64,000 bases of DNA from Neolewinella agarilytica. GTDB taxonomy: Bacteria; Bacteroidota; Bacteroidia; Chitinophagales; Saprospiraceae. Below, piece after piece: positions 1,936-55,369 of the stretch. Within the stretch, counting starts at the first letter, position 1, and every line of letters starts with the position of its first letter. The notes beneath the pieces were generated by a model. It was given only the letters and a program-made list of their open reading frames with translations. It did not search any database and was not told the DNA's origin. The stretch lies in contig NZ_FOFB01000022.1 in assembly GCF_900110645.1 (NCBI RefSeq), positions 1-64,000 on the forward strand, in the 5' to 3' direction. The position numbers and the translations under genes are program-made.

Positions 1936-2022
1936 CGCTACTTTACCGCTGTTTTTATTGGTCAGTTTCTTCTTTCGAAGAAAACACTTGTGTGATACTA
2001 TCACTCTATCACACTCGCATAC

Positions 2023-2030
2023 TATCTTTG
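2023..2030 (+). promoter_or_regulatory. -7 box for purL
   Basis: TATCTTTG matches TAnnTTTG and lies 25 bases before the purL ATG, predicting a leader of under 20 nt. No good TTG -33 element is visible at the usual distance. Confidence 0.5.
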
Positions 2031-2055
2031 CCGCTTACCCAAAATTCCCTCCATC

Positions 2056-15279: not shown

Positions 15280-15348
15280 ACTTGTTGCGGGGTCGCTTTT
15301 CGGGCGAGTGAAGGGTAATCTAGTAAGCAGTCTAATAGCATCGGGCAT

Positions 15349-15378
15349 TTGCCGGAGTAGCCCGTCGGTGTATCTTCG
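15349..15378 (+). promoter_or_regulatory. Promoter just upstream of the 15384 gene
   Basis: TTG at 15349-15351 and TATCTTCG at 15371-15378 are 19 bases apart. The ATG at 15384 begins five bases after the -7 box, so the transcript may be leaderless, as proposed for dapB. Confidence 0.45.
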
Positions 15379-15383
15379 CGCCC

Positions 15384-15986: not shown

Positions 15987-16028
15987 GGCTTTTTTTTCGT
16001 TGTTACACAAATAGTATCCCCCTCCCGA

Positions 16029-39721: not shown

Positions 39722-39787
39722 CCAAAGATCGAGCCTGTCCGGTCCGGGATCAATGATAAAAGTCACTGACTTCAATGATTTGTATTG
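39722..39787 (-). promoter_or_regulatory. Tandem Fnr-like operator and promoter of the 38842 USP gene
   Basis: Sites TGATAAAAGTCA (39754-39765) and TGATTTGTATTG (39776-39787) start 22 bp apart. On the minus strand the -7 element GATCTTTGG (39722-39730) is centred 33.5 bp from the proximal site. Both sites are degenerate in the second half. Confidence 0.65.
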
Positions 39788-39873
39788 AGGTGGTGAAATT
39801 CAACGGGAGAATGTCATAGTTGCTGATTCTACATTATATAGTATGTGTGCCCAAGAGCCCTTTAGTACTTTCA

Positions 39874-39970
39874 GGCGCAGACGCAGGTGCAAGGGAAAGA
39901 CCTTTAATGAGCAAGGGGGAAGACCCGTAATTGCTTTCTGGTCCAATTCCCTGCACCTGCGTCAGCGCCC
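39874..39970. repeat. Dispersed inverted-repeat element (paired ends)
   Basis: The left end GGCGCAGACGCAGGTGCAAGG and right end CTGCACCTGCGTCAGCGCCC enclose about 57 bases. The element lies between the two divergent operator pairs of the flanking USP genes and could insulate them. Confidence 0.8.
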
Positions 39971-39990
39971 CTTTACCCAAACAGGCGGAC

Positions 39991-40056
39991 TGACGAAAAT
40001 CACCTCCTGCTATGATGAAAAGCAGTAAAGTATGATGAGTGGTCACTGACCTTAGC
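39991..40056 (+). promoter_or_regulatory. Tandem Fnr-like operator and promoter of the 40077 USP operon
   Basis: Sites TGACGAAAATCA (39991-40002) and TGATGAAAAGCA (40013-40024) start 22 bp apart. The -7-like GACCTTAGC (40048-40056) is centred 33.5 bp from the proximal site. This is the most degenerate of the five operator pairs. Confidence 0.55.
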
Positions 40057-40076
40057 AGGAACAAAAATATAATACC

Positions 40077-40988
40077 ATGCCTGCCATCAAATCCATCCTT
40101 GTACCTATTGATTTTTCAACCGTGGCAGCTAATGCCTTTAATTATGCTCTCCATCTGGCAGACAGGTATCCCGCACGGATTGATTTACTATACGTTATGC
40201 CTACGGCTCTTTCTTCCCCGGGGATGGATAGAATCCTGGCAGCTCGTGCAGGAGAGCTTAAAAAGGAGGCAATAGAAAAAATGGTCTCCTTCCGCAGTAA
40301 GGGAATAGATAACGCGATGAATACGCTTACGGGCATACCCGAAGTATGCGTATTTATTGAAGCCGGTGATCTTGGGCCGATCGTTAAAAAAAGGATTAAA
40401 GCCGGGAAGACGGACCTGATAATTATGGGCACCACTGGTCGGGAAAAGCCCTTGTCCGGTTTGATCGGCACGAATACCACTCATCTTATTGATGAGACCA
40501 AAGTTCCTGTCCTGATCATCCCTAATGAAGCACGCACCCGCAAACCGGGGCGGCTCTGTTATGCTACTGATCTCAAACACCTCGATCCTTTCCGGGTTAC
40601 GGAATTGTTCGATTTCTTCGGTCCTTTTGCACCCAATGTAGATTTTGTGCATGTCTCTTCCGTCAGCCATGAAAAAACGGAATTCGACCTGGACCTTTTG
40701 CGCAAAGTGCTTGATCAACCCGATATTCATGAGCGCCTGAACTTTACCCAGATTTCGGGGAAGAACAAGGTGGACGAGTTGCTTCGTTACGCAAAAAAAT
40801 CTGCTGCGGACATCATAGTAATGAACCGGCCCCGCCGAGGCTGGCTGGAGCGTCTCTGGAAGCGTAGCCACACGCAGGAGGCAATAGTGAAGACAGAGTT
40901 GCCCTTACTGATTTTTCAGGCAGATGAAACTGCCGGCACCTCTGGCATCCTCCGCTCAGAGGAAGAATCCTTAACGCTAAAATCTTAA
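40077..40988 (+). CDS. Tandem universal stress protein, subfamily B
   Basis: The 303-residue protein has two Usp domains. The N-terminal half begins IKSILVPIDFSTVAANAFNYAL and carries a canonical G-x2-G-x9-G-T loop (GTTGREKPLSGLIGT), so ATP binding is plausible. The C-terminal half ends with NRPRRGWLERLWKRSHTQEAI, a basic-aromatic motif shared with the USPs at 41390 and 45022. It is the first gene of an operon with a cupin-like gene four bases downstream and another USP gene. It is divergent from the subfamily A gene at 38842. Confidence 0.88.
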   Translation: MPAIKSILVPIDFSTVAANAFNYALHLADRYPARIDLLYVMPTALSSPGMDRILAARAGELKKEAIEKMVSFRSKGIDNAMNTLTGIPEVCVFIEAGDLGPIVKKRIKAGKTDLIIMGTTGREKPLSGLIGTNTTHLIDETKVPVLIIPNEARTRKPGRLCYATDLKHLDPFRVTELFDFFGPFAPNVDFVHVSSVSHEKTEFDLDLLRKVLDQPDIHERLNFTQISGKNKVDELLRYAKKSAADIIVMNRPRRGWLERLWKRSHTQEAIVKTELPLLIFQADETAGTSGILRSEEESLTLKS

Positions 40989-40991
40989 GTA

Positions 40992-41315
40992 ATGAACGAT
41001 CGACCTACCGATAAAGCTTCCACTATTGAAAGTGTACTACAAAAACTAAAAACAAGTGTTGGCCCGGTGACTGAGATGTTACACAATAACGACAGCTTTA
41101 AAGTGATCCTGTTGGGCCTTAACGTCGATGTCCTGCTACCGGATCACCACACTAAGTTGCCCACTAAACTGACCGTATTAAAAGGCAGTGTGGTGTACCG
41201 GGATATCAATGGGAACGTACCTCTTTTTCAATATGATGAACTGGAGATTCCAATCAACGAAATTCACTCCGTCCAGGCAATTCGACCAAGCCTCTGCCTG
41301 CTGACCATTGGGTAG
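40992..41315 (+). CDS. Small cupin-like protein in a USP operon
   Basis: The 107-residue protein starts three bases after the stop of the preceding USP gene. The centre (FKVILLGLNVDVLLPDHHT then LTVLKGSVVYRD and EIPINEIHSVQA) has the strand pattern of a single-domain cupin, with two adjacent histidines that could bind a metal. Not all cupin metal ligands can be seen. It is probably a small cytoplasmic binding or sensing protein. I cannot name its ligand. Confidence 0.65.
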   Translation: MNDRPTDKASTIESVLQKLKTSVGPVTEMLHNNDSFKVILLGLNVDVLLPDHHTKLPTKLTVLKGSVVYRDINGNVPLFQYDELEIPINEIHSVQAIRPSLCLLTIG

Positions 41316-41332
41316 CCTGCCTGGATCGAACG

Positions 41333-41351
41333 CCAGGCCCTTCCGGCCTGG
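41333..41351 (+). other. Intercistronic hairpin in the USP operon
   Basis: CCAGGCC-CTTCC-GGCCTGG forms a 7-bp GC-rich stem between the cupin-like gene and the next USP gene. A preceding CCTGG at 41320 offers an alternative pairing. There is no clean T-run, so it is more likely a processing or stability element than a full terminator. Confidence 0.5.
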
Positions 41352-41389
41352 ATACTCACTATCGGTTTTCTTGTACGAAAAGAAAAAAC

Positions 41390-42238
41390 ATGAAAAGCAT
41401 AAAACACATTCTGGTTCCCGTAGACTTCGGCGAAGTATCCGCCAATGCCTACGAATATGCCTTGCAACTGGCAGGCGAGTTATCCGCTTCCGTACATCTT
41501 CTGCATTGTCTGCCGGCGGCGCCGGTAATTCCGGGGAACGGACATGTCGTGTTAGACACAGTGCCTCAGCTTCATCAGCGGGCAAAGGAACAGATTGCCG
41601 ATTTTGCGGTAGCTGGTAAGGCTAATGCGCGCTGGCAGGTAAGCCAGATGCCGGAGGTGACTACCTCCATCAGCGCATTCGGGCTGAAGGAGGGTATAAC
41701 GCAGTACGTTATGGACCACGAAGTTGGCCTTATCGTTATGGGCACCCACGGCGTGCAGGATGCCTGGGACAGGTTCTTCGGCACCAACGCTACTTTTCTG
41801 GTGGGCAAAGTAAAACCGCCTATCCTTGTCTTGCCACTCAACGCCAGGTACCAGGCCTTAAAGACGATTTGCTTTGCTACCGGGCTTCGCGAGAGTGACC
41901 TGGTCGGGGCGGGCAGCCTGAGAAAAGCGCTGTCCGTTTTTGATCCTCAAATTAACTACCTGCACGTTCACCTTCCCGATGATCCGCAAACTTCGGATGG
42001 CCTTGATCTCTTCCGTCGTGCCTTTGAGCAACCACGGGATGGTGTGGAGGCAACGTTCATCACAACCTTTAATGAGGATGTTACCGACGGTATTTTTAAT
42101 TATCTCAATAAGCATCCGCACGACCTGCTCGTGATGATTAAGCTTGAGCGAGGCTGGTGGGATCGAATGTTCGCACACAGCGACACCCGGGAGTCCGCAG
42201 GTGTTACGAATCTTCCACTGTTGATCCTTGGGCAGTAA
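41390..42238 (+). CDS. Tandem universal stress protein, subfamily B
   Basis: The 282-residue protein has two Usp domains. The first begins IKHILVPVDFGEVSANAYEYAL and ends with the canonical loop GTHGVQDAWDRFFGT (G-x2-G-x9-G-T). The second half ends with IKLERGWWDRMFAHSDTRES, related to the motif in the 40077 and 45022 proteins. It is third in the operon begun at 40077. Its last 35 bases overlap the end of the convergent MscS-like gene. Confidence 0.87.
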   Translation: MKSIKHILVPVDFGEVSANAYEYALQLAGELSASVHLLHCLPAAPVIPGNGHVVLDTVPQLHQRAKEQIADFAVAGKANARWQVSQMPEVTTSISAFGLKEGITQYVMDHEVGLIVMGTHGVQDAWDRFFGTNATFLVGKVKPPILVLPLNARYQALKTICFATGLRESDLVGAGSLRKALSVFDPQINYLHVHLPDDPQTSDGLDLFRRAFEQPRDGVEATFITTFNEDVTDGIFNYLNKHPHDLLVMIKLERGWWDRMFAHSDTRESAGVTNLPLLILGQ

Positions 42239-43130
42239 GGTTTAGGTCAGGAATCTTAATGATTTCAATGGTAGCGGAGGCGAGAGTAACTTTGTTGTCG
42301 GTGGCCAGAATGGCCTTTCCAATGCGTTCGTTCAGTAGGTTCTTGGTTGACCGTCTCTGCCGGTAATCCACGATGTACCGAACGTTGAATTGCATCCAGT
42401 TGTCAGTCATCGTAATGGCCAGCGTCGGTTCGACTTTGGCGTCTTCGATGTAATATTTACTCACTACCTTTTTCCAGTTCAGCCGGGACTGGGTAAGATA
42501 TTCGGACAAGATTTCAGCGGTAGTTGATATCACAATTGATTTCGCCAGATCGAGGTCTGAACCATAACGGATCGGGAAGTTGATCTCATCCCACACGAAG
42601 GGGAAATCCTGTGAATAGTTGTAGATAGGCCCTTTAAAAACGAAAGCATTACTCAGCTTTACAATCCTGCCGCTATAGTTGTCGCTCGATACCCATTCGC
42701 CGATTTCCATCATGGTAGTATAAATGCTGTCTATATCAATTACATCCCCTTTGATGCCATTGATCTCAATTCGGTCTCCTGGTTGATAAACCTTAACGAT
42801 GAAAATGTAAAAAGAGCCTGCAATGCTAAGAATCAATTCCTGAAGGGTGATGGTTATACCAGCCGTTAATAAGCCGATGGCCAGCGTGAAATCTTTGACG
42901 GAGCCCGTAAAGTAGGATACGGTTAGAATGATAATAAGTACGTACCCAACGATCTCAATGGCCTTCTGAGATTTGTATCTGACGGATGTATCCGGTAATT
43001 TTCGTTTTAGGAGTTTCCTGAGGAAGGATATGGTTAGTATAATCAATATCAGCCAGGTCACATATTTAAGCGCACTAACCAGGGTTGGATTTAGAACCAT
43101 CCATTCTTTGACGCTTTCCAGAAATTGCAT
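42204..43130 (-). CDS. MscS-family mechanosensitive channel
   Basis: The 308-residue protein has three to four hydrophobic segments in residues 15-115, followed by the MscS beta domain (YQPGDRIEINGIKGDVIDID) and a C-terminal alpha/beta domain. The pore-lining helix region (FTLAIGLLTAGITITLQELILSIAGSFYIF) is recognisable though less glycine/alanine regular than in E. coli MscS. It should act in the inner membrane to release solutes or conduct ions. It is the third gene of the operon usp (43947), usp (43155), mscS-like, with a 24-base gap, so it is expected to respond to the same operator pair. Confidence 0.85.
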   Translation of the reverse strand: MQFLESVKEWMVLNPTLVSALKYVTWLILIILTISFLRKLLKRKLPDTSVRYKSQKAIEIVGYVLIIILTVSYFTGSVKDFTLAIGLLTAGITITLQELILSIAGSFYIFIVKVYQPGDRIEINGIKGDVIDIDSIYTTMMEIGEWVSSDNYSGRIVKLSNAFVFKGPIYNYSQDFPFVWDEINFPIRYGSDLDLAKSIVISTTAEILSEYLTQSRLNWKKVVSKYYIEDAKVEPTLAITMTDNWMQFNVRYIVDYRQRRSTKNLLNERIGKAILATDNKVTLASATIEIIKIPDLNLTAQGSTVEDS

Positions 43131-43154
43131 ACGGTTTGTTTAAGGGAGGGTATT

Positions 43155-43931
43155 CTAAAAACTATCCTGCAGCACAAGCACCGGAACACTGGACGCCCAG
43201 GTAACCCTGCGTGCTACGGAATCTGAGGTTGGAGAGCCCAACCAATGACCATCCCGGTGGGTAACGACGAGAATGTCCGCATCAATCAGCTCCGTAAACT
43301 CTACAACGGCATTACCGATGGGCTGTTGGTTGTCGACCTGATAGTAAAAGCGATGCTTGATGCCCTCCAGCAGCCGGCCGTATTCCCGGTCCGGTGTCGA
43401 TCGGTCCGTTGCCTGGAGGTAATGGAACAACAACAAATCAGTGCGGTCTGCCCTGAGCAGCTCGAGCATTGGGGTAAGCTGCCGGATGTGCCTGGGGCAG
43501 ATTTTATCAGTCGCCAACAGAAAGCGGCGGGGATATTTTACGGGAGCCAGGTCTGGAACCGCCAGAATGGGAATCCGGGTGTCTTCCATAAGCGAGGTAG
43601 TGCTACTGCCCCAGGGGTTTTCTGGCAGGAAATTCTCGCCCTGGCAGCCCATGACGACTAGGTCGCAATCGCCATCGTCGATGACGCGCTTCAGGGTTTC
43701 AATGACCGGCCCTTCATAGATGTAGGCAGCGGTCTTTATACCACGGGATCCGCTGCTGTCAGCCAGTTCCGTGAGGCGTTTTTTGGCTTCGTCGGCCTCC
43801 GTAGTTCCAGCTGGCGGTACGATGTGTACTAAGCTGATACTGGCCTTCATTTGCAGTGCAATTTCCTCGGCGTACGCCAGGGCACGGTCCGCTGATTTGC
43901 TGAAGTCGATGCCCACTAAGAGATGTTTCAT
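43155..43931 (-). CDS. Tandem universal stress protein, canonical loop
   Basis: The 258-residue protein is the shortest of the eight. It begins KHLLVGIDFSKSADRALAYAEE and has the canonical loop GCQGENFLPENPWGS (G-x2-G-x9-G-S). The second half is reduced, ending HRDGHWLGSPTSDSVARRVTWASSVPVLVLQ, with a sequence nearer to ordinary UspA. By loop type it groups with subfamily B, although it is on the minus strand. It lies 15 bases after the 43947 gene and 24 bases before the MscS-like gene, in one operon. Confidence 0.86.
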   Translation of the reverse strand: MKHLLVGIDFSKSADRALAYAEEIALQMKASISLVHIVPPAGTTEADEAKKRLTELADSSGSRGIKTAAYIYEGPVIETLKRVIDDGDCDLVVMGCQGENFLPENPWGSSTTSLMEDTRIPILAVPDLAPVKYPRRFLLATDKICPRHIRQLTPMLELLRADRTDLLLFHYLQATDRSTPDREYGRLLEGIKHRFYYQVDNQQPIGNAVVEFTELIDADILVVTHRDGHWLGSPTSDSVARRVTWASSVPVLVLQDSF

Positions 43932-43946
43932 GCTTAGATATTTTGT

Positions 43947-44858
43947 TTAGTAGATGTTCTTAGCGATCGCTTTACCGATGTTGGAGGAACGGTCTTCGTC
44001 CACCGTGAAGGGGATTACCATCATGGGGACCTTGACGGACTGAATAATTGGCTTCAGGTTGTTTTTGTCGAAGAGCCGGCGCCAGAACCCCTGATGTTTA
44101 CCGCCAAGAACAAGCAAATCTATTTGCTTGTCGGCGACGTATTGAGACAGCTGCTTAGCAACGTTGCCCGCCGGAAGCAAGTCAGACCTGTAAGTGTAGG
44201 AGGGAAGGCCTTTGCCCCACGTAAGGTCATTGAAGTCGTCTTCGTTTTCGAGTTCGGCCCGCCAGTCTGTTTTGCTGACGTGGACGTACCGAACCTCAGG
44301 CTTAAGCGTCTGGATGATCGTCCGGGCAAATTGCCCGATCCGGATGATTTCGTCCGCATCGTCAAAGGCGATGGCTAATTTTTCCACGGTAACCGAGCCG
44401 TAATCTTTAGGGATCAGAATAACGGGGCAATTACCACGTAATGCTACGGGGGTAGCTACACTTCCGTAAAGCCCCGGAGGGTGAATGCCTGCTCCGGCAC
44501 CAACTCCTCCCATCACGATGAGGGCTGTGTCAGCCTCTTTACTAATGGATAAAATCTCGTTCGCCGCCATACCGGAGTGTACGGAATAACTCACCTTTGG
44601 AACAAAGGCAGTACGCCCACGATTGGTCAGAAATACAGGATCAACGTTTTCGTGGGTAAATCTGGCAAGTTGATCCACCAGCTTTTCTTCATCCCGTTTT
44701 TGTTCAGGCGTGGTAAGGCTGTGGGAGCCGCTTAAGATGAGGTCAGCGATGTGGACGATGGATAAGTTGTAATTCAGCAACTGGGCCAGGTGAGTACCAA
44801 ACCTTGTGGCTTCGGCAGCAGTCTCTGAAAAGTCAACGGGGATAACTACGTTTTTCAT
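43947..44858 (-). CDS. Tandem universal stress protein, subfamily A
   Basis: The 303-residue protein is started at MKNVVIPVDFSETAAEATRFG; the frame to 44945 would include the -7 box and operator, so the upstream ATG is rejected. The first-half loop is GGVGAGAGIHPPGLYGS, the 11-residue variant. The second half has LLVLGGKHQGFWRRLF. It is the first gene of an operon with a second USP gene and the MscS-like gene. It shares its operator region with the divergent USP gene at 45022. Confidence 0.87.
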   Translation of the reverse strand: MKNVVIPVDFSETAAEATRFGTHLAQLLNYNLSIVHIADLILSGSHSLTTPEQKRDEEKLVDQLARFTHENVDPVFLTNRGRTAFVPKVSYSVHSGMAANEILSISKEADTALIVMGGVGAGAGIHPPGLYGSVATPVALRGNCPVILIPKDYGSVTVEKLAIAFDDADEIIRIGQFARTIIQTLKPEVRYVHVSKTDWRAELENEDDFNDLTWGKGLPSYTYRSDLLPAGNVAKQLSQYVADKQIDLLVLGGKHQGFWRRLFDKNNLKPIIQSVKVPMMVIPFTVDEDRSSNIGKAIAKNIY

Positions 44859-44873
44859 CAGGAATGGATTTAT

Positions 44874-44920
44874 GCGGTGAAAAACCTTCACCGCCTCTTC
44901 CCAAAGATCAAGGCGGTGAA
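44874..44920. repeat. Inverted repeats bracketing the minus-strand core promoter
   Basis: GCGGTGAA (44874-44881), TTCACCGCC (44887-44895) and GGCGGTGAA (44912-44920) form alternating inverted copies. The last two flank the -7 box at 44901-44909. In the transcript the first two could form a hairpin in the leader. Confidence 0.6.
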
Positions 44921-44998
44921 CTTCCGGAGCTATGATTTTAATCACCGGAATCTATGATTCAGATCAGGGGATGCAACTCTTCCTTCCCCCAATTTTGA
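44901..44998. promoter_or_regulatory. Shared tandem Fnr-like operator with two divergent promoters
   Basis: Sites TGATTTTAATCA (44933-44944) and TGATTCAGATCA (44955-44966) are both perfect TGAT-N4-ATCA and start 22 bp apart. The minus-strand -7 element GATCTTTGG (44901-44909) and the plus-strand CAATTTTGA (44990-44998) are each centred 33.5 bp from their nearer site. This is the clearest operator of the set. Confidence 0.78.
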
Positions 44999-45021
44999 CT
45001 TATCACCAATAATAATTTGTC

Positions 45022-45912
45022 ATGCATCCTATCCGCTCCATTCTTGTTCCCGTTGACTTTTCCAAAGTATCCGCCAATGCGTTTCGGTACGCCCTTCGCC
45101 TGGCCGATCAACTGGATGCCAGCATCGACCTTCTGTACGTCTTGCCGGACACAGACGGGAGCCTGATGTCCATCAGTCTTAATGATCAGTATGTAGGCCT
45201 TGGCAAAGAGAAACTGGCTGATTTCTTCACTAAAGGAATGACGGCCGTTTCAAGCCATTTAGAGCACGTTCCTGCCGTTCGCCTATTCGTTGAAAACGGA
45301 AGTCTTCGGGCAACCATTCTTCGACATCTCGAAGCGGAGCAGAATAATTTGATCCTGATGGGCACGCAAGGAGAAGACAACGAAGAAGCGGATAATATTT
45401 TTGGCTCCAACACTTCGAATTTGGTCGGTAGGGCCACTTGTCCCGTGTTGGTTATTCCGAAGAGCTTCGATTTTCGGCCGCTGCATTCGATCTGTTACGC
45501 GACGGACCTCACGCACATTGATGCTTTCCACGCGGGTCATGTGCTTAAAGCACTGCGGGTGTTTAAGCCCCGACTGGATTTTGTCCACGTTAAGACGGGA
45601 AAAGGGCAAAAGACCAACTTTGATATGGACCTTCTGCGGGAAGTATTCCACCGGCCCGGTACGGGCGTTGATACCCGTTTCCATGTACTGGAAGATGATG
45701 ATGTAGCGGAAGAAATTCTTGACTACGCCGAAGACATCTCTGCTGATCTGGTCGTGATGCACCGGCCGCGCCGGGGCTGGCTGAGCCGGCTGTTTAGCAA
45801 GAGCAACACTCGTGAAGCTGTTCTGGAAACGACGCTGCCACTGCTTATTCTTCCCCAGGAAGAATCGGATGAGCGGAAAAATGAAGTGTCTTTTATCAGT
45901 GAGAAGGTTTAG
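45022..45912 (+). CDS. Tandem universal stress protein, subfamily B
   Basis: The 296-residue protein begins IRSILVPVDFSKVSANAFRYAL, very close to the 40077 protein. Its loop is GTQGEDNEEADNIFGS, with 10 residues between the second glycine and GS. The second half carries HRPRRGWLSRLFSKSNTREAV. It is divergent from the subfamily A gene at 43947 and shares its operator. Phosphoketolase lies 198 bases downstream on the same strand, with a dispersed repeat element in between, and may be read through from this promoter. Confidence 0.88.
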   Translation: MHPIRSILVPVDFSKVSANAFRYALRLADQLDASIDLLYVLPDTDGSLMSISLNDQYVGLGKEKLADFFTKGMTAVSSHLEHVPAVRLFVENGSLRATILRHLEAEQNNLILMGTQGEDNEEADNIFGSNTSNLVGRATCPVLVIPKSFDFRPLHSICYATDLTHIDAFHAGHVLKALRVFKPRLDFVHVKTGKGQKTNFDMDLLREVFHRPGTGVDTRFHVLEDDDVAEEILDYAEDISADLVVMHRPRRGWLSRLFSKSNTREAVLETTLPLLILPQEESDERKNEVSFISEKV

Positions 45913-45989
45913 GCAATTGCCGGGCCCTTGGCACTCCCATTTCGCAGCTGGTACTTCCCGGAAGAAGCCAGTCATGTAAACAGTTTTTT

Positions 45990-46084
45990 GGCGCGACCGC
46001 AGGTGCAAAAAAAAGAGGTTGAAGAGCAGTGGTTTAAAACAGTCATTGCTCCTTCGGCCTTTTTTTGCACCTGCGTCCGCGCCC
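45990..46084. repeat. Dispersed inverted-repeat element (paired ends)
   Basis: The left end GGCGCGACCGCAGGTGCA and right end TTGCACCTGCGTCCGCGCCC (exact consensus) enclose about 57 bases. A-run and T-run stretches directly inside the ends extend the pairing, so the transcript could form a long hairpin. It lies 26 bases upstream of the phosphoketolase ATG. Confidence 0.85.
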
Positions 46085-46110
46085 GGAAACGCATCAGAAT
46101 CCACCAGTCT

Positions 46111-48465: not shown

Positions 48466-48525
48466 TCAAGGGAGGTTAAGGTCGGTAATCATTAGATAGC
48501 TGTTGACTCCGGCACGTCAAACAAA

Positions 48526-49203
48526 TTATACTATTCGTCCATCTTCCATCGTGATAATCCGATCAGTCCGATCCGCAAAATCCTGATCGTGGGTAACGAT
48601 TAGCAGAGTAAGTCCCCGTGAAGTAGCCAAGTCCCGAAAAACGGACAGGACGTTCTCTGCATTTTTACTATCCAGGTTACCGGTTGGCTCATCTCCCATT
48701 ATTATGCTGGGAGAATTGATCAAAGCACGGGCGATGGCAACCCGCTGCTTTTCACCACCGGAAATTCGGGAGGCGCGTTTTTCGGCCAGTTTTTTTATGT
48801 CGAGTAACTCCAATAATTCCATGGCGTCTTGCCGAATCTCCTCCTGGTTTTTTTTTCCCAGTTTTCGGGCAGGCAGGCTGATATTATCGAGTACCGAAAA
48901 TTCATCCAGTAGATAGTGGAATTGAAAAACAAAGCCGATGTGTTCGTTACGAATGGCGGAGAGCTCCGCTGCGGGTAGACGACTGACCAACCGGTCATTT
49001 ATAAACAGATTGCCAGTATAGTCTGTGTCCATCGTGGATAGAATATACAGGAGAGTGGATTTTCCGCTACCAGACTTACCCATGACGGATACGAACTCAC
49101 CACGTTTGACGTCGAATGTGATGTCTTTCAGGACGTGGTAATCGGTCGGTTCATGGAAATGCTTATCAATGCCAGCGGCGCGAATGACTGATTGCTTGTC
49201 CAT
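48526..49203 (-). CDS. ABC transporter ATP-binding protein (MacB/LolD type)
   Basis: The 225-residue protein has Walker A GKSGSGKST, the signature ISGGEKQR, Walker B SIIMGDEPTGNLDS and the switch histidine in LLIVTHD. The sequence is of the MacB/LolD/FtsE class that works with FtsX-fold permeases. It is the last gene of a three-gene operon, one base after the permease stop. It powers the permease from the cytoplasmic side. Confidence 0.92.
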   Translation of the reverse strand: MDKQSVIRAAGIDKHFHEPTDYHVLKDITFDVKRGEFVSVMGKSGSGKSTLLYILSTMDTDYTGNLFINDRLVSRLPAAELSAIRNEHIGFVFQFHYLLDEFSVLDNISLPARKLGKKNQEEIRQDAMELLELLDIKKLAEKRASRISGGEKQRVAIARALINSPSIIMGDEPTGNLDSKNAENVLSVFRDLATSRGLTLLIVTHDQDFADRTDRIITMEDGRIV

Positions 49204-49204
49204 A

Positions 49205-50464
49205 TTATTGTCCTCTGAGTACGTCTACGGGGTCCATTTTCATCGCTTTATTGGCTGGTAAGTAACCCGCGAAAAAGGAGGCGACGACTGCGAAGATGAA
49301 TCCAATAATGAAATAAAGTGGTTCGAAATTGACGGGGTAGGTGGTGATGGAGGGGAGAGCGGATATTTCAAAGGGTGTATTATCGATGAACACTGAAAGT
49401 CCCCACCCGAGGAATAGCCCGGATATTCCACCGAAAACGCCAATAGTCATGGCCTGGATCATAAAGATGGTTTTTACCTCTTTACCGGAAAAACCTGTTG
49501 CTTTGAGAATGGCGATATCGTTCATTTTTTCCCTGATGAACATATTGAGAATATTGTAAATACCGAACCCTGCCACTAACAATAGCGTAATGGCTACCAC
49601 GTAAGTAATAAGATTACGGATACTGGTGCCCGTGTCAAAATCTGCATTGGCTGTTCCAATATCAGTGGCCTTGATGTTGTAGAGCTTTGAAAATTGCTGC
49701 GCCAGTGGTAAAGCGTTTTCGAGATCGAACAACTTTACGTTAATCGAAGTGATGAAACTACTGCTCTCTCCCAGTAACCGACGGGCTGTTCCGATATTTA
49801 CATAACTCTGGGTATCATCTATTTCCGAAAGGCCGCTTAAGTACAGCCCCACTACCTTGAGGGAAATACGGTTGCCGGTAGGGCTGACCAGCTGTACTCT
49901 GTCTCCAATTCCTGCGCTTAGTTTTTTGGCGACACCGTTACCGAGGATAATTGCGTTGGCATCCCGTTCCAGGGCGTCAGTATTTCCTTCTATGACGTAT
50001 TTTTCAAGCGGAAACAGGCGAACCTCCTCTGCTACGTCAATGCCGGATACTACTCCGGTCAGATCAACCGCCCCGGCATTATAAAATACCTGAGAGACTA
50101 CCTGTGGGCTTACACCTCGTACTTCAGGATAATCCCGAATGCTCCGAATAATAGAAGACGCTGCGGCAATCCGGTTTTGCTGCTGTTTGGGTTTTACAGA
50201 ACTAACCACGAGTAGGTCGTCTTCGTATGTTTTACTTAGGTTGAGGGGTTGCAGAGGGGAAGGAGCAATTTCTTTATACAACCGGATATGAGGCGTCCGA
50301 TCCATCGTTAACCCGTCGAGGAGTTGATTCAGGCCGGTCATGAAAGTACTCATGGTAATAAACATCCCTACACCGAAGGTAACTCCCAGAGCTGCGATAA
50401 CAGATTGCTTTAACCGACTGAATATATGCTTGCCCGCGATGTAAAACAATAGCTTTAAATCCAT
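49205..50464 (-). CDS. ABC transporter permease (FtsX/MacB fold)
   Basis: The 419-residue protein is started at MDLKLLFYIAGKHIFSRLKQS, since the longer frame overlaps the upstream lipoprotein. One N-terminal membrane segment (IAALGVTFGVGMFITMSTF) is followed by a periplasmic MacB-like domain of about 220 residues and three C-terminal membrane segments (ITLLLVAGFGIYNILNMF and later). This is the mechanotransmission-type architecture used for lipoprotein, peptide or drug export without substrate crossing the membrane. It lies between the fusion-protein and ATPase genes with one-base gaps. Confidence 0.88.
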   Translation of the reverse strand: MDLKLLFYIAGKHIFSRLKQSVIAALGVTFGVGMFITMSTFMTGLNQLLDGLTMDRTPHIRLYKEIAPSPLQPLNLSKTYEDDLLVVSSVKPKQQQNRIAAASSIIRSIRDYPEVRGVSPQVVSQVFYNAGAVDLTGVVSGIDVAEEVRLFPLEKYVIEGNTDALERDANAIILGNGVAKKLSAGIGDRVQLVSPTGNRISLKVVGLYLSGLSEIDDTQSYVNIGTARRLLGESSSFITSINVKLFDLENALPLAQQFSKLYNIKATDIGTANADFDTGTSIRNLITYVVAITLLLVAGFGIYNILNMFIREKMNDIAILKATGFSGKEVKTIFMIQAMTIGVFGGISGLFLGWGLSVFIDNTPFEISALPSITTYPVNFEPLYFIIGFIFAVVASFFAGYLPANKAMKMDPVDVLRGQ

Positions 50465-50465
50465 T

Positions 50466-51545
50466 TTATTCTGGTTGGTAAACAATGGTGTTGGAGTCGA
50501 TACCACTGATTATTTCGGTGTAGCGCAGGTCAGAAATACCGGTAACTACCTGGCGCTCTCCGTCTTCGGTGAGGACCTGGTTGTCCGGCCCGATTAATTC
50601 AGTAGGGAGAGTCATTGTGTTTTCCCGGCGTGAGATAACGATGTTGGCTTCTCCGCTTAACCCGTCATAGAGTCGTTCGGGAGCCTGAGTGAAAACGGCT
50701 TCAACAGTGAATGCCTGGGTCAGGCTGTTTTTATGAGGGAGGATCCGGCTTATTTTTGCTTCATAGGATTGATTGCGGTAAGCATCGAGCCTTACCAACA
50801 CCGTTTGCCCGAGCTCTATCCGGGAAATGTCTACCTCATCAATCAGGAGTTCAAGAATAAAATGGCTGCTGCTGCCAATTCGGGCTACCGGCGTTTGAGT
50901 AGTAACGGATTCTCCGGTTTTCTTCTCAATTTGGTAAATAGTTCCGCTCATTTTCGCCCGGATAGTATGTTCGTCGTAATACTGCCCACTTATCTCAAGA
51001 GAAGTGCCGGCGAGGGCCAGCTGATCGGCTAACTGCTGACGGGTTCGCTCGTAAGTTTTTTGCAATTCATTGATGTAATGGCGCGAAGTGTTGAATTTTA
51101 GCTCCATCGTTTCGAAAGCCTGTCGGGAGCCAATATTCTGCTTCCAGAGCCGTGCCTGTCTGGCATAGTTGACAGAGTCGTTCAGGAGGCTCATTTTTGC
51201 GGAGTTTATCCGCTCGTCCATTTCTTTAAGAACCGCAACTTCACCCTGGTAATTCTCCAGCGCCTGAACGTAGTTCTGCCGGGCTTTTTTCTTTTCCAGT
51301 TTCGCGCGCTGATCACTGATGCGAAAGAGTTCGTCTCCTTCTTTCACTTCGGCGCCCTCCTTCATCATACTTTGATCAATGATGCCGTTCACGGGGGAGA
51401 AGACGGTGTAGGCTTCTTTAGGAACTACAAGAACGGTACCGTAAACCGCTTCGGTGATGGTCGTCCGGCCGGGCTGGATGCCAGTAGTTTCCTCACTGCA
51501 GCCAGCAAGGAGAAAAAGTAGTAGTACTAAATGTGCGATTCTCAT
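50466..51545 (-). CDS. Membrane-fusion (HlyD/MacA-like) lipoprotein
   Basis: The 359-residue protein has a lipoprotein signal (LLLFLLAGCSEE). The lipoyl-like halves are FSPVNGIIDQSMMKEGAEVKEGD and TIRAKMSGTIYQIEKKTGESV, separated by an alpha-helical hairpin of about 110 residues. A beta-barrel domain follows (LIDEVDISRIELGQTVLVRLD). It should bridge the inner-membrane permease to the periplasm. No outer-membrane TolC-like gene is adjacent. It is the first gene of the ABC operon, 154 bases after the sigma-factor gene. Confidence 0.87.
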   Translation of the reverse strand: MRIAHLVLLLFLLAGCSEETTGIQPGRTTITEAVYGTVLVVPKEAYTVFSPVNGIIDQSMMKEGAEVKEGDELFRISDQRAKLEKKKARQNYVQALENYQGEVAVLKEMDERINSAKMSLLNDSVNYARQARLWKQNIGSRQAFETMELKFNTSRHYINELQKTYERTRQQLADQLALAGTSLEISGQYYDEHTIRAKMSGTIYQIEKKTGESVTTQTPVARIGSSSHFILELLIDEVDISRIELGQTVLVRLDAYRNQSYEAKISRILPHKNSLTQAFTVEAVFTQAPERLYDGLSGEANIVISRRENTMTLPTELIGPDNQVLTEDGERQVVTGISDLRYTEIISGIDSNTIVYQPE

Positions 51546-51649
51546 TTTTTTGAATTTTCCCCCTGCAGTTTTTAGCCTGTTCCCGAAGTCGGGTGTAGAT
51601 TGCCTTCCTGATTATACCTATGCATTTGTATCTCGGTCAAACCCCGGCT

Positions 51650-51676
51650 GGACGCCAACTCCATCTGCCGGCGTCC
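51650..51676 (-). other. Hairpin between the sigma-factor and fusion-protein genes
   Basis: GGACGCC and GGCGTCC form a 7-bp stem with a 13-nt loop, 24 bases after the sigma-factor stop. There is no T-run. It may modulate read-through from the sigma gene into the ABC operon. Confidence 0.35.
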
Positions 51677-51699
51677 GAACTCGATGCCGCAGAAATAGC

Positions 51700-52209
51700 T
51701 CAGGCTCTAAGCCCACGCCCGTTCAGCTTCTTTTTCAGAATGGACCTGGCTTTAAACAAGCGACTCTTTACGGTGCCTAATGGCACCTGAGACCGCTGAG
51801 CAATTTCCTCGTAAGTCAAACCCTGAAAGTGCATCAGAAATACCTCCCGGTAAATACATGGTAATTGTTCAATCAGCATGGTTACCTCCTCGGCCTCGAG
51901 CAAATCTGTCCCCTTATTAGTAACCGTAAGGTCGGAGGAAAAGCCAGTTGGCAGGCCGTACTGAGCCAGAATCTCTCTACGCCGTTTTGTTCTTCGGTAG
52001 TCCGAGATAAAAACGTTACGAATGATTCGTTTTACCCAGGCCGAAAAATCGGTTCCGTATTGAAAGCTGTTGCGGTTTTTGAATATTTGGTAGTTAACCT
52101 CCTGCAATAAGTCCCGAGCCCGGTCTCCGTCACGAGTTAGACTCAGGGCGAGCGTTTTGAACTCCGGGAGGTGGGTTTGATTCAGCGAATTGATTTGTTC
52201 GATAGTCAT
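51700..52209 (-). CDS. ECF-type RNA polymerase sigma factor
   Basis: The 169-residue protein has sigma region 2 (RARDLLQEVNYQIFKNRNSF then FSAWVKRIIRNVFISDYRR) and region 4 (LPCIYREVFLMHFQGLTYEEIAQRSQVPLGTVKSRLFKAR). No anti-sigma factor gene is adjacent, which is less common for ECF factors. Its start is 145 bases from a minus-strand -7 element of the shared operator at 52354-52451. It may pass a low-oxygen signal on to further genes, possibly including the ABC operon behind it. Confidence 0.92.
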   Translation of the reverse strand: MTIEQINSLNQTHLPEFKTLALSLTRDGDRARDLLQEVNYQIFKNRNSFQYGTDFSAWVKRIIRNVFISDYRRTKRRREILAQYGLPTGFSSDLTVTNKGTDLLEAEEVTMLIEQLPCIYREVFLMHFQGLTYEEIAQRSQVPLGTVKSRLFKARSILKKKLNGRGLRA

Positions 52210-52353
52210 TACCTGCTGGTGGATTGGTTTACAATTAAAAAGGACTTGCCGTAATAGTAGGGGTTCCGAAAGGGGAGGGGCTTATCTGAGCCTGGTGGAA
52301 AAAAGCACGAAATAAGTCTACGTAATACATGCATGCCCGCTTCTGGGAGCCTA

Positions 52354-52451
52354 ACAAAGTTGCCGTTGGTGGGGGATTAACCTACTGATTCAATTCACTG
52401 ACCTGAATGATTCTAATCATTTTACTTTTCTCATGATTGTTGCAGCTTGTG
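52354..52451. promoter_or_regulatory. Shared tandem Fnr-like operator between sigma and OsmC genes
   Basis: Sites TGATTCAATTCA (52386-52397) and TGATTCTAATCA (52408-52419) start 22 bp apart. The minus-strand -7 element CAACTTTGT (52354-52362) is centred 33.5 bp from its nearer site. The plus-strand counterpart, CAGCTTGTG at 52443-52451, is weaker. A third copy, TGATTCTAATCA at 52450-52461, overlaps the predicted plus-strand start of transcription. Confidence 0.68.
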
Positions 52452-52477
52452 ATTCTAATCAAGATAATCTCAGCTAT

Positions 52478-52876
52478 ATGCAATATCACTCATCCGCAAA
52501 GATCAATTCAGAGCGAGAAGCTGCTTTTTCCATCAGAAGTCATGGGGTGCCGTTTGGAGTCTTGAAAGAACAGCAGGACCTGCCGAATCCCGCTGAACTT
52601 CTCTTAGGGGCTTTTGCTGCCTGCTGTTTGAAAAATGTCCAGCGATTCTCAGAGATACTAGGTTTTAGCTATGACAACGCCAGTATCGAAGTGACGGGTG
52701 AGCGCCAGGAAAAGCCTACTAAGATTGCCGCTATCAGATATACTATCCAAATTGATGGTGTGGTGGGTAAGCTGAACGCGGAATTATTGCACAAAAACCT
52801 TCGCAAATTCGGGACGATCTATAATACCCTCAAAGAAACTTGCGATGTTTCCGGAGAGCTGCTAATTTTTCCTTAG
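52478..52876 (+). CDS. OsmC/Ohr-family peroxidase-like protein
   Basis: I start the protein at MQYHSSAKINSEREAAFSIR (132 residues). The ATG at 52433 would put codons over the third Fnr-like site and the predicted promoter. Two cysteines in the expected OsmC positions are present (GAFAACCLKNVQRF and LKETCDVSGEL). The family reduces organic hydroperoxides through such a cysteine pair. It is a single gene, divergent from the sigma-factor gene and driven from the shared operator. Confidence 0.85.
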   Translation: MQYHSSAKINSEREAAFSIRSHGVPFGVLKEQQDLPNPAELLLGAFAACCLKNVQRFSEILGFSYDNASIEVTGERQEKPTKIAAIRYTIQIDGVVGKLNAELLHKNLRKFGTIYNTLKETCDVSGELLIFP

Positions 52877-52921
52877 TCAAGGTTTGTGCCGACTAATCAA
52901 TATCAGCCTTTGTCCATTCCA

Positions 52922-53458
52922 TTATTCTTCAAGAGTAATGGTATTGGACACAAGGCCCAGCGCAAGTCTTGCCCAGCTAACTGCCGTGTTAATCTCCCAT
53001 TCGAGGTCGGCCGTATCTGAGGCTGAACTGATTCCATCTACTTCTTCATCCAGAAGCATTTCTCCGCTTCCTGAAGTGCTTATCACAAACAGGGGAACGT
53101 CTTCCGGCAAGGACTCTTTGAAGTCATTGACCATTCCCGGCGGTCGCCAAAATTCCCAGGTATGCATCAGGATGCAAGCGTCAATTTTTCTTTCTGTCTG
53201 GTACGCTACGGCTGCTGTGATATCAATCACTTTGATGTATACCGCGCGCTCAGTAAAGGCAGTAATAATTCCTGCCGTCAGACTGTCTTTATGAGTACTC
53301 TGTTGCGTTACGATTAATAAGTGTTTGGGAGCTGAAGGACTGTTCACTTCAAATGAAGTAGCTACGGCCATAGAATAGGTACCCAGATACCAGACAAAGA
53401 AAGACGTGAATAGTAGCAGCAGGGCGAGGCCAACTTTCGTGCTTTTTCGGAATTTCAT
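52922..53458 (-). CDS. Membrane-anchored flavodoxin-like protein
   Basis: The 178-residue protein has one N-terminal membrane segment (VGLALLLLFTSFFVWYLGTY). A flavodoxin-like fold follows: HLLIVTQQSTHKDSLTAGI resembles the FMN phosphate loop, then CILMHTWEFWRPPGMVNDF and VPLFVISTSGSGE. The topology suggests an electron carrier or quinone-linked flavoprotein held at the membrane, perhaps outside the cytoplasm. FMN binding is not proven by the motif. It is the last gene of the operon of USP genes 54387 and 53484, with a 25-base gap. Confidence 0.65.
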   Translation of the reverse strand: MKFRKSTKVGLALLLLFTSFFVWYLGTYSMAVATSFEVNSPSAPKHLLIVTQQSTHKDSLTAGIITAFTERAVYIKVIDITAAVAYQTERKIDACILMHTWEFWRPPGMVNDFKESLPEDVPLFVISTSGSGEMLLDEEVDGISSASDTADLEWEINTAVSWARLALGLVSNTITLEE

Positions 53459-53483
53459 CGTATTTGCATTTTAGGGTGTTCCA

Positions 53484-54350
53484 CTAATTCTGGTCAGTTA
53501 CGGGGACGATAAGCAGAGGAACCTCTGAATGACGTAGAAGAGGCTTCACATGATTTTTCAAAAACAGGTCTTCCCAAAGACTATGTTTTCTATGGTTGAG
53601 AACCAGTAAGCCGATTTTTTCGTCCCGTGCATAATTAAGCAAGCTATGTGCAACGGGGCCTGGTGGTAAGCTGTCATAGCTAAATGTGTTGCTAGGGAAG
53701 CCGGGTTCCAATGCGAGGGACAAAAAGTACTCTTCATTTTCTCTTTCGAAGGACTGGGTGTTTTGGGAAACATGTACAAATCTCACCTCCGGCCGTAAAG
53801 CTTTGATGATGCGACGTGTGGTGAGACTGGTTTTTTTGATGTCTTCTGCATCTCCAAAAGCTATCGCGACCCGGTTAACAGAAGGCGAACTGTAGCCGGG
53901 AGGTAACAGGATGACGGGACATCCACCACGTAAACCTATTTCGCGGGCTACCCCACCAAAAAGCCAGGGTGGGTTATCACTTTTGCCAGCTCCCATGCCG
54001 CCCATTACTACTAATTCAGTTTCTACCCGTTCGCTTAATCTTCGTATCATTTTGGGAGGAGAGCCCTCAAACACCTCCGTTAGAATGGTGGGCAAGGTCT
54101 CCAGATTTCCCTGGAAAGTGGCCAGAACGGGTAAGGCGTGAGCTTGGGTGAAATCATTTAATTTTTCAGTCAGCCTTTCTTTTTCTGCTAATAGCGCACC
54201 CGTGGAAACTACCTGCGCAAAACTAAAATTGGCATCAAACACATGAACGGCCTTAAGGTCAAGGTCCATTATCTTGGCCAGATAAGTTCCGAAGCTCAGG
54301 GCCGCTGCGGATGTGTTGGAAAAGTCTACCGGGACAAGTATGTTTTTCAT
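53484..54350 (-). CDS. Tandem universal stress protein, subfamily A, altered loop
   Basis: The 288-residue protein begins MKNILVPVDFSNTSAAALSFG. The loop is GGMGAGKSDNPPWLFGG: the 11-residue variant, and the final Ser/Thr that contacts phosphate in ATP-binding Usps is glycine, so nucleotide binding may be lost. The second half has LLVLNHRKHSLWEDLF. It is the second gene of the operon starting at 55250. Confidence 0.87.
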   Translation of the reverse strand: MKNILVPVDFSNTSAAALSFGTYLAKIMDLDLKAVHVFDANFSFAQVVSTGALLAEKERLTEKLNDFTQAHALPVLATFQGNLETLPTILTEVFEGSPPKMIRRLSERVETELVVMGGMGAGKSDNPPWLFGGVAREIGLRGGCPVILLPPGYSSPSVNRVAIAFGDAEDIKKTSLTTRRIIKALRPEVRFVHVSQNTQSFERENEEYFLSLALEPGFPSNTFSYDSLPPGPVAHSLLNYARDEKIGLLVLNHRKHSLWEDLFLKNHVKPLLRHSEVPLLIVPVTDQN

Positions 54351-54386
54351 GCTTTCATTAATTATTTATAAGCCAGGAAATTGGTC

Positions 54387-55250
54387 CTATTTACTCAGGG
54401 GTGCCACCAGTATCGGAATAGCGCAAGTACCTATGATGTCGGGTATTTCGGATTTGACCAGCAGGTTCATGATTAAACTCATTGGCCGGCGACCCAGAAT
54501 CAACATATCTATGTCTTCTTCCAGCGCATAATCAATCAGCACGTTGGTTACGTCTCCTTTGGGGAGTAGATCAAAGTCCACATCATAGTCAGGAAAGTCA
54601 TTTTTGAGTACTTCGCGAAGCAAATCAAGTTCAATTAATTCCTCCCTTGCGTCATCTTGATAAAGGACGTGAGTAAAGCGCATTTTCGGTGAAAGCGCTT
54701 TACGAAGGAAAGCGGTTTTATCACTTAGCTCTTTAAGAGTCTCTACGATGTCAAAAGCGATGGCTGCCCGTTCTATCTTCGGTACACCAGTATTTTGCGG
54801 AATTAGCAGTACGGGGCATTCTGCCTGCATTGCCACTCCTTTGGCTACACTGCCAAAGACGGGCGTCGCCTGATTGGGAATGCCGGAACCAACCCCTCCC
54901 ATAACAATCATCGCGGTATCCTCCTTTTTACTGATTATTACGAGCTGGCTGATTGCTTTTCCGACAACTTCTCTGCATTTTATGAAAGGCAAGGTGTCGT
55001 CATTGAGATGGGTGCCGGTAAAGGTCATTTTGTCTGCGTGAAGGTTGACGAACTTCTCCAGTCTTTCTCTTACCCGCGACCGGACTCTTGCGCTTCCTTT
55101 CATGAATACCGTAGCATCCTCTCCGTCATACCCATCGTGCACATGAACGGCCTCCAGGTCATAACCGGTAGTGTCTGCCAGGTAGCAGCCAAACTTCAGG
55201 GCATCTGCTGAAGTGCTGGAAAAATCAATCGGCACAATTATTTTAAACAT
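54387..55250 (-). CDS. Tandem universal stress protein, subfamily A
   Basis: The 287-residue protein begins MFKIIVPIDFSSTSADALKFG and resembles the 38842 protein throughout, including the HVHDGYDGED segment and the GGVGSGIPNQATPVFGS loop. The second half ends LILGRRPMSLIMNLLVKSEI. It is the first gene of the operon usp, usp, flavodoxin-like, and shares its operator with the divergent metal ATPase gene. Confidence 0.88.
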   Translation of the reverse strand: MFKIIVPIDFSSTSADALKFGCYLADTTGYDLEAVHVHDGYDGEDATVFMKGSARVRSRVRERLEKFVNLHADKMTFTGTHLNDDTLPFIKCREVVGKAISQLVIISKKEDTAMIVMGGVGSGIPNQATPVFGSVAKGVAMQAECPVLLIPQNTGVPKIERAAIAFDIVETLKELSDKTAFLRKALSPKMRFTHVLYQDDAREELIELDLLREVLKNDFPDYDVDFDLLPKGDVTNVLIDYALEEDIDMLILGRRPMSLIMNLLVKSEIPDIIGTCAIPILVAPLSK

Positions 55251-55271
55251 TGTATTTATGTTTTGTTGCTC

Positions 55272-55369
55272 TCAAAGTTCAGCGGGGGAGCAGTGGTTTG
55301 TAGTGATTGATATCACTGGCAGTGCTGATCTTTATTGCTCACCAAAACGGGTTCTCCTGCTAACTTTAT
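55272..55369. promoter_or_regulatory. Shared tandem Fnr-like operator between a USP and the metal ATPase
   Basis: Sites TGATTGATATCA (55304-55315, perfect) and TGATCTTTATTG (55326-55337) start 22 bp apart. The minus-strand -7 element GAACTTTGA (55272-55280) and the plus-strand TAACTTTAT (55361-55369) are each centred 33.5 bp from their nearer site. Confidence 0.75.

Follow-up and report, generated by a model that had tools for sequence, protein, structure and literature searches.

In Bradyrhizobium diazoefficiens, FixLJ induces fixK2 and FixK2 controls the cbb3 operon (PMC6515984, PMC4999443), and the proteins induced at low oxygen in Bradyrhizobium include universal stress proteins and cbb3 subunits (PMC6515984). 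We describe here a candidate system of related composition in the Bacteroidota, which came to light in a 64,000-nucleotide stretch of Neolewinella agarilytica DNA (contig NZ_FOFB01000022.1, positions 1 to 64,000; the window), where five regions of a stress island carry paired palindromic sites 22 bp apart. We consider it likely that these are operators of a Bacteroidota low-oxygen regulon, in which the functions of FixJ and FixK reside in a single receiver-Crp fusion protein that would bind as side-by-side dimers near -41.5 and -63.5. This reading is built on the geometry of the sites, its conservation, their intergenic location, the -7 element that emerges at the promoters, the linkage of the sites to the fusion gene and its occurrence in the same genomes, and the conservation of phosphorylation and haem-pocket residues.

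The resemblance to FixL-FixJ-FixK2 lies in a FixL-type kinase, a Crp/Fnr-type activator of the cbb3 operon and the universal stress proteins, but FixJ and FixK2 are separate proteins, whereas here receiver and Crp are joined in one protein and paired TGAY-N4-RTCA sites are found at Bacteroidota promoters (PMC6515984, PMC4999443). In the hFixL-FxkR-FixKf system of Rhizobium, too, a Crp/Fnr regulator and cbb3 stand below a FixL-related kinase and a response regulator, although the system is a two-step cascade rather than a fusion and FxkR binds GTTACA-N4-GTTACA (PMC4999443, PMC7888657). NmpRSTU of Myxococcus xanthus, a system for oxygen utilization, is similar in its haem-dependent kinase and in uniting cbb3 oxidase and the P-type ATPase that goes with it, hemN, a universal stress protein and CBS-domain proteins within a single regulon for low oxygen, but it has a protoglobin sensor, a phosphorelay and an NtrC-like regulator, and the word CRP is absent from its text (PMC11841059). 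A Crp/Fnr homologue in a Saprospiraceae metagenome-assembled genome comes from the same family of bacteria and belongs to the same regulator superfamily, but was assigned to carbon sensing as MalR-like, in a text that lacks the words receiver, tandem and universal stress (PMC8510549). A study of Flavobacterium reports that cbb3 is strongly induced when oxygen is limited, in a text that contains neither Fnr nor Crp (PMC9723704). No account of a receiver-Crp/FixL regulon or of 22-bp paired sites in Bacteroidota was found in the open-licence literature, which leaves absence from print unproved, and little was found there on low-oxygen control in aerobic Bacteroidota. Our analysis supplies a prediction of such a regulon, including its operator grammar and targets and candidates for its regulator and sensor.

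At class II promoters of Escherichia coli, Fnr binds a palindromic TGAT..ATCA site near -41.5, with a second site at some promoters. Fnr senses oxygen with its own iron-sulphur cluster, recognizes TTGAT half-sites with an E-x2-S-R recognition helix, and acts with sigma-70 -10 elements; we know of no fixed 22-bp pair in its regulon. The promoters described here are like these in having a TGAT..ATCA palindrome at what we predict to be near -41.5; it is the fixed distance from site to -7 element that is seen directly.

Geometry and conservation of the paired operators

The initial annotation placed five pairs of sites, each spaced 22 bp, at 39754/39776, 39991/40013, 44933/44955, 52386/52408 and 55304/55326, and all five were located at these positions. 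Each of the ten sites agrees with TGAT-N4-ATCA in six to eight of the eight consensus letters, and letter scoring bears out that four (44933, 44955, 52408 and 55304) are perfect. With three of the pairs divergent, the five provide eight promoters, and the pairs and their predicted genes are as follows.

39754..39787, minus strand: site pair, 22 bp, serving the universal stress protein gene 38842-39705; TTTG (39723-39726) at the exact offset; two mismatches
39991..40024, plus strand: site pair, 22 bp, serving the universal stress protein gene 40077-40988 and a probable operon to 42238; TTAG; two mismatches
44933..44966, both strands: perfect divergent pair, serving universal stress protein genes 43947-44858 (minus) and 45022-45912 (plus); TTTG exact on both sides; no mismatches in either direction
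52386..52419, both strands: divergent pair, serving the ECF sigma gene 51700-52209 (minus, TTTG exact) and the OsmC-like gene (plus, CTTG one base nearer); one and three mismatches
52450..52461, plus strand: extra perfect site with the same sequence as 52408-52419, 42 bp downstream of it in the leader of the OsmC-like gene, near the predicted transcription start
55304..55337, both strands: divergent pair, serving the universal stress protein gene 54387-55250 (minus, TTTG exact) and the heavy-metal P-type ATPase gene 55401-57602 (plus, TTTA); two and three mismatches

The -7 element was described as TTTG-like in seven of the eight promoters, which is a fair account: TTTG stands at the exact offset in five, TTAG and TTTA take its position before the genes at 40077 and 55401 (both plus strand), the osmC promoter has CTTG one base nearer than the exact offset, and the A of TAnnTTTG is kept in all eight. 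A distance of 33.5 bp from the proximal site had been proposed, and while the distance is indeed fixed, by our count it is 33.0 bp from the centre of the proximal site to the centre of the octamer. Because TTTG lies at the exact offset on both sides of the 44933 pair, that pair can serve both of the divergent universal stress protein genes. A sigma-70-type reading of these promoters was rejected, with promoter-like sites at background between 39700 and 46200 (seven compared with 6.6 expected).

The spacing is not one that composition produces readily. At a summed score of at least 13 of 16, the window contains five pairs at spacing 22 and none to four at each other spacing from 12 to 60, and at a score of at least 14 there are four pairs at 22 and at most one at any other spacing. 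The initial annotation would have been undone by random sequence with similar pairs, but simulated sequence yields nothing comparable: with 49 spacings scored in each of 150 Markov-simulated windows, no spacing held more than three pairs at the lower threshold or more than one at the higher. In the 6.2-Mb genome as a whole, the exact pattern TGATN5TCA-N{0,30}-TGAN6TCA occurs at six distinct places with a spacer of 10 and at no more than three with any other spacer (places counted by hand from the match list, with C27:48017 left out of closer look). The pair and TTTG combined into one pattern, with 27 free bases between them, give 23 matches at up to three mismatches, several of which are two directions of one pair, compared with two for the reversed pattern; because the reversed pattern differs from the query in codon content, the other spacings are the stronger controls. 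On contig C72, three sites in a single 22-bp register precede a metallo-beta-lactamase/rhodanese gene, and the last of them lies at the same distance from the -7 box as in the pairs.

Relatives keep the pairs, whose absence there would have counted against the initial annotation. We scored 60 stretches of 9-20 kb around the gene for the fusion protein, 17 from the same genus and 43 from others. At a score of at least 14 of 16, the 17 contain 33 pairs at spacing 22 and at most three at any other of 55 spacings (10-65), with none or one at each of 21, 23, 32 and 33, and the 43 contain 31 pairs at spacing 22 and at most seven at any other. The spacing-22 pairs are intergenic in 58 of 64 instances, whereas intergenic bases make up 12% of the sequence.

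The -7 element emerges from these alignments at a single offset. Taking 118 pairs of the relaxed form TGAY-N4-RTCA in both directions (236 orientations, from the 60 stretches, the window and two further stretches of the same genome), TTTG starts 61 bases past the start of the distal site in 71, compared with none to six at every other offset from 34 to 105. In 95 promoters from 52 stretches, chosen only for having a pair and TTTG, the base three before TTTG, on which there was no selection, is A in 88, and we read it as the A of the Bacteroidota -7 box, TAnnTTTG. No -33 element emerges in the 95 aligned promoters. The half-site is TGAY, and the base before TGA is not conserved, so that the TTGAT half-site of the initial annotation does not hold. 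Distal sites prefer TGAT..A.ATCA and proximal sites TGAY..RTCA, with a TGA..TCA core common to both.

The module of pair plus TTTG, at up to one mismatch, is present in 214 of 298 genomes of the order (one match for the reversed control), in 53 of 395 genomes drawn from the phylum (none for the control), and in 30 of 79 genomes of the class outside the order; these per-genome counts are complete, and individual places are given among the matches listed. The arrangement is not confined to this island but is also found elsewhere in the genome and across the order. The named relatives are Neolewinella and Lewinella, and since cultivated Neolewinella strains are among the carriers the system is testable. 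A promoter code with almost base-exact spacing also lets the regulon be read from sequence.

A receiver-Crp fusion and a FixL-type kinase as candidates

The regulator is most likely a 351-residue protein encoded on a different contig (C45) from the island, beside a FixL-type kinase gene. It has receiver, cNMP-type and Crp helix-turn-helix domains in one open frame, with PF00072 identifying it as a response regulator and PF00027 and PF13545, both above cut-off, placing it in the Crp/Fnr superfamily. A strong copy of the module (C45:205884) sits between a cbb3 oxidase cluster (COX1-FixO, FixP, FixG and FixH by Pfam) and the kinase/fusion gene pair. Among 66 orthologues, the receiver residues Asp54 and Lys106 are present in all 66, Asp11 and Thr84 in 65 and Glu10 in 64, and the recognition helix has Glu316 and Arg320 in all 66, in an E-x2-I-R arrangement with Ile in 55. 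NCBIfam matches to both kinase and fusion are generic and below cut-off (among the best 25 of 88 and the best 25 of 106, respectively), and no Protein Data Bank sequence spans both fusion domains among the 60 of 327 matches listed. With receiver and Crp in one frame, the fusion also departs from the arrangement in which a separate FixJ activates a fixK gene.

Two familiar kinds of regulator can be ruled out. An iron-sulphur Fnr is excluded by the lack of the Fnr cysteine cluster in the fusion, which by eye has two cysteines in its 351 residues, one of them in the receiver; nor does the pairing of site and helix follow Fnr, since no base is conserved before TGA and the helix is E-x2-I-R. Crp has a conserved Glu and Arg in its cAMP phosphate-binding cassette, and a cAMP-dependent Crp is excluded because this cassette is not conserved: positions 213 and 224, matched by eye, are mostly Tyr and Tyr/Glu/Asp in the 66 orthologues. 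The proposal of a single Fnr/Crp-type regulator thus survives in its family, in the placement of two dimers and in a class II-like distance that holds across relatives, but the protein is probably the fusion and is not Fnr-like.

The kinase encoded next to it has a PAS domain whose best matches in the Protein Data Bank are FixL chains (97 bits, E 8.9e-27). A PAS kinase match is found at 61 of 66 fusion loci, and in 57 it shares the strand of the fusion and lies no more than 3 kb away. Of the 61 PAS matches, 60 keep the haem histidine and 54 the FG-loop arginine, and both are kept in all 46 matches with E<1e-25; we take these to be the equivalents of FixL His200 and Arg220. The kinase thus has the proximal His and FG-loop Arg of the FixL type and would be expected to bind haem and oxygen. 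In N. agarilytica the gene that directly follows the module, ahead of the FixL-like kinase gene, encodes a small conserved membrane protein without a Pfam match (L015, 10298-10531, minus strand), and similar small membrane proteins follow modules in L079, L080, L083, L092, L109, L110 and L114.

The fusion and the module occur together well beyond N. agarilytica. The fusion, called at E<=1e-50 in the order sample, is present in 202 of 298 genomes of the order and in 41 of 79 of the class outside it. Within the order, 176 genomes have both, 38 the module only, 26 the fusion only and 58 neither (Fisher p 8e-17, odds ratio 10.3); in the phylum sample outside the order the corresponding numbers are 26, 9, 15 and 326 (p 3e-22, odds ratio 62.8), after dropping the receiver-only matches of G602 and G610 from 58 phylum-sample fusion matches; and in the class outside the order they are 26, 4, 15 and 34 (79 genomes, p 2e-6). 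G013, a complete genome of the same genus, has neither. The two are also linked physically, with 16 of 76 site-profile matches in fusion-bearing genomes lying within 12 kb of the fusion gene compared with about 0.5 expected. The profile was trained on eight pairs from the N. agarilytica genome only, so that its matches in that genome are partly there by construction.

Proposed mechanism and alternative readings

In the model that we favour, falling oxygen would be sensed by the histidine kinase through its FixL-type haem PAS domain, and the kinase would phosphorylate the receiver of the adjacently encoded fusion. Dimers of the activated fusion would bind TGAY-N4-RTCA, two of them adjoining at centres of about -41.5 and -63.5; these positions are two helical turns apart, so that both dimers would lie on one face of the DNA. 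The role of the -33 element would pass to the proximal dimer, which would bring RNA polymerase to the -7 element (xAxxTTTG) in class II style, the distal dimer would add cooperativity or upstream contacts, and a single pair could drive two divergent promoters. The fixed distance, the missing -33 signal and a spacing that keeps both sites on one face, about two turns apart, are consistent with class II activation in which another dimer docks beside the first. We infer haem and oxygen binding, phosphotransfer, DNA binding by the fusion, cooperativity, start sites and the direction of regulation, and the oxygen-controlled step and the driving of pairing by phosphorylation have the same standing. 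The regulon in N. agarilytica would include universal stress proteins, the ECF-type sigma factor, the OsmC-like protein, the heavy-metal ATPase, the cbb3 oxidase, a HemN-like radical SAM protein, an AhpD-like protein, a metallo-beta-lactamase/rhodanese protein and probably the sensor-regulator operon itself.

There is a more specific form of this model, to which we give an even chance, in which FixJ and FixK have merged such that phosphorylation of the receiver assembles Crp dimers side by side in near-exact register (22 bp, or 23 bp in some genera; two and sometimes three dimers), the array replacing the -33 element and licensing the -7 element. If true, phosphorylation would control geometric assembly on DNA and not production of a second regulator, and the system would illustrate how the successive steps of a FixJ and FixK cascade could collapse into one fused protein.

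Several observations weigh against the low-oxygen fusion model. The fusion is undetected in 38 of 214 module-bearing genomes of the order and in nine of 35 outside it, and 26 fusion-bearing genomes of the order lack the module at one mismatch. A laxer search at E<=1e-25, covering 71 of the 96 genomes of the order in which no fusion had been called (all 38 with the module and 33 of 58 without) together with G598 and G631, finds a near-full-length fusion in only two of the 38 (G063 and G238) and partial, possibly cut-off fusions in three (G066, G224 and G242), the other 33 having receiver-only matches or none. No fusion was found in G598, G631 or G600, which have 10, 11 and seven module matches, respectively. 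Among 14 loci around modules in 11 fusion-negative genomes (including G063, which has a divergent fusion), two, in G600 and G645 of the phylum sample, have modules near a Crp that lacks a receiver and has an E-T-V/I-I-R helix, and the fusion is thus not the sole possible user of the module. The promoters of cbb3 and of the sensor operon match less well in the N. agarilytica genome. Among the 15 weaker PAS matches at the fusion loci, only eight have the Arg220 equivalent, and the target list is biased by the fetching of stretches near fusion or module matches. Moreover, 22 bp is not absolute, as seven pairs outside the genus, three of them perfect, form a minor second spacing of 23 bp (L096 12289, L097 10939, L106 16329, L112 7973, 17104 and 19669, and L129 7738); the fixed geometry of the initial annotation holds across relatives, with these and the three-site promoter as its departures. 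On balance the module seems tied to a subgroup of Crp proteins, in which the fusion is the form most often seen. The receiver-less Crp of G600 (stretches L319-L320) lies near the module in L320.

The absence of the fusion from some module-bearing genomes, together with the receiver-less Crp proteins of G600 and G645, would be explained if a stand-alone Crp/Fnr protein bound the pairs and the fusion were only a neighbour or a further target. One such protein, C72:1728, shares its contig with the three-site array and has the E-x2-S-R helix of Fnr, which also counts against the fusion. We nevertheless think this unlikely given the association of module and fusion (odds ratios of 10.3 in the order and 62.8 outside it, although the Fisher and Poisson values ignore shared ancestry), the clustering of profile matches around the fusion gene (16 of 76, about 0.5 expected) and the lack of conservation of the first T of the Fnr half-site TTGAT. 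Less probable again is that the members of a pair act as distinct operators, one for each of two regulators or one to activate and one to repress, with 22 bp reflecting the steric packing of 22-bp footprints; the slight difference between distal (TGAT..A.ATCA) and proximal (TGAY..RTCA) sites, the extra site in the osmC leader and the 23-bp spacing in some other genera could be read in this manner, but the sites have a common TGA..TCA core, the same genus has 33 pairs at 22 compared with none or one at 21, 23, 32 and 33 (score of at least 14), and one promoter carries three sites in the same register. As for chance or composition, the palindrome TGAT..ATCA occurs often in this genome, within genes as well as between them, and TGAT-N4-ATCA is over-represented across the window (12 copies compared with 0.91 expected), with seven of the 12 outside the listed operators. 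However, spacing 22 stands out in the window, the genome and the relatives, the offset to the promoter is fixed and the controls are nearly empty, and we regard chance as ruled out for practical purposes by the spacing scan, the simulated windows and the intergenic location of 58 of 64 pairs.

Predicted targets and neighbouring features

The predicted products of the island that fall under the fusion model are given below, with operons inferred from intergenic gaps of 3-74 bases.

38842..39705, minus strand: universal stress protein (PF00582), predicted target
40077..40988, plus strand: universal stress protein (PF00582), predicted target
41390..42238, plus strand: universal stress protein (PF00582), in a probable operon with 40077
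42204..43130, minus strand: MscS-type channel (PF00924), in a probable operon 44858-42204
43155..43931, minus strand: universal stress protein (PF00582), in the same probable operon 44858-42204
43947..44858, minus strand: universal stress protein (PF00582), predicted target
45022..45912, plus strand: universal stress protein (PF00582), predicted target
51700..52209, minus strand: ECF-type sigma factor (PF04542/PF08281), predicted target with its promoter from the 52386 pair
52478..52876, plus strand: OsmC-like protein (PF02566, scanned from 52433), predicted target with an inferred start codon
53484..54350, minus strand: universal stress protein (PF00582), in a probable operon with 54387
54387..55250, minus strand: universal stress protein (PF00582), predicted target
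55401..57602, plus strand: heavy-metal P-type ATPase (Pfam; NCBIfam TIGR01525 above cut-off), predicted target

With these operons the eight promoters cover many genes between 38.8 and 57.6 kb. The earlier proposal that the whole of this island is controlled in this way holds for much of it, although the window scan found no site pair directly upstream of the phosphoketolase or ABC exporter genes. Inclusion of the ECF-type sigma factor would give the stress island a feed-forward layer. For the OsmC-like gene we prefer the start at 52478 because 52433 precedes the predicted transcription start, and the extra site at 52450-52461 might repress this gene.

Elsewhere in the genome the predicted targets are the following, a list that leaves out five of the 23 combined-pattern matches (on C39, C47 and C73, and two on C27).

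Three universal stress protein genes beside the fusion gene; two to three mismatches
An AhpD-like gene
A radical SAM gene, read as hemN, for which Pfam gave Radical_SAM only; two mismatches
An operon of the small membrane protein, kinase and fusion genes; two mismatches
The metallo-beta-lactamase/rhodanese gene on contig C72

A site pair is also present where the cbb3 operon starts, although its -7 match is poorer.

Across 81 stretches, the window among them, we predict 140 promoters, with 133 distinct open frames lying downstream. Compared with reference genes by BLAST, 40 of these are universal stress proteins, 10 kinases, 10 CcoN-type, seven CBS and seven other named proteins, with 59 unassigned. 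Of the latter, 45 were scanned, the 14 under 100 residues being left out, and among the best 25 of 41 families there are three matches each to HSP20, ATP-cone and YceI and single matches to anaerobic ribonucleotide reductase, NiFe hydrogenase, HypA, FixH, TauE and others; some of the families have no evident oxygen link. Taken as a whole the target set looks like a low-oxygen regulon, and probably reflects a low-oxygen response that is widespread across related genomes.

Two loci contain further features. A frame downstream of a predicted module, probably L085 15351-19901 (plus strand), matches Tc-type toxin families (SpvB, TcdB middle). In L016, a Crp gene with an Fnr-type helix (1719-2363, minus strand) is divergent from one of two similar metallo-beta-lactamase/rhodanese genes (2552-4006 and 14884-16293, plus strand), in a cluster that also holds a peroxiredoxin and a pyridine-nucleotide oxidoreductase that we read as sulphide:quinone-reductase-like.

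The window also contains a dispersed, hairpin-forming repeat family, and no known RNA element was matched by Rfam at gathering threshold between 38000 and 58000. The repeat, GCACCTGCGKNNGCGCC, is present in fifteen copies between 4367 and 59445 compared with 0.01 expected (e.g. 39874-39969 and 45990-46083), and eight of the copies form four head-to-head pairs 77-85 bp apart. Similar copies were noticed by eye in stretches L015 and L016.

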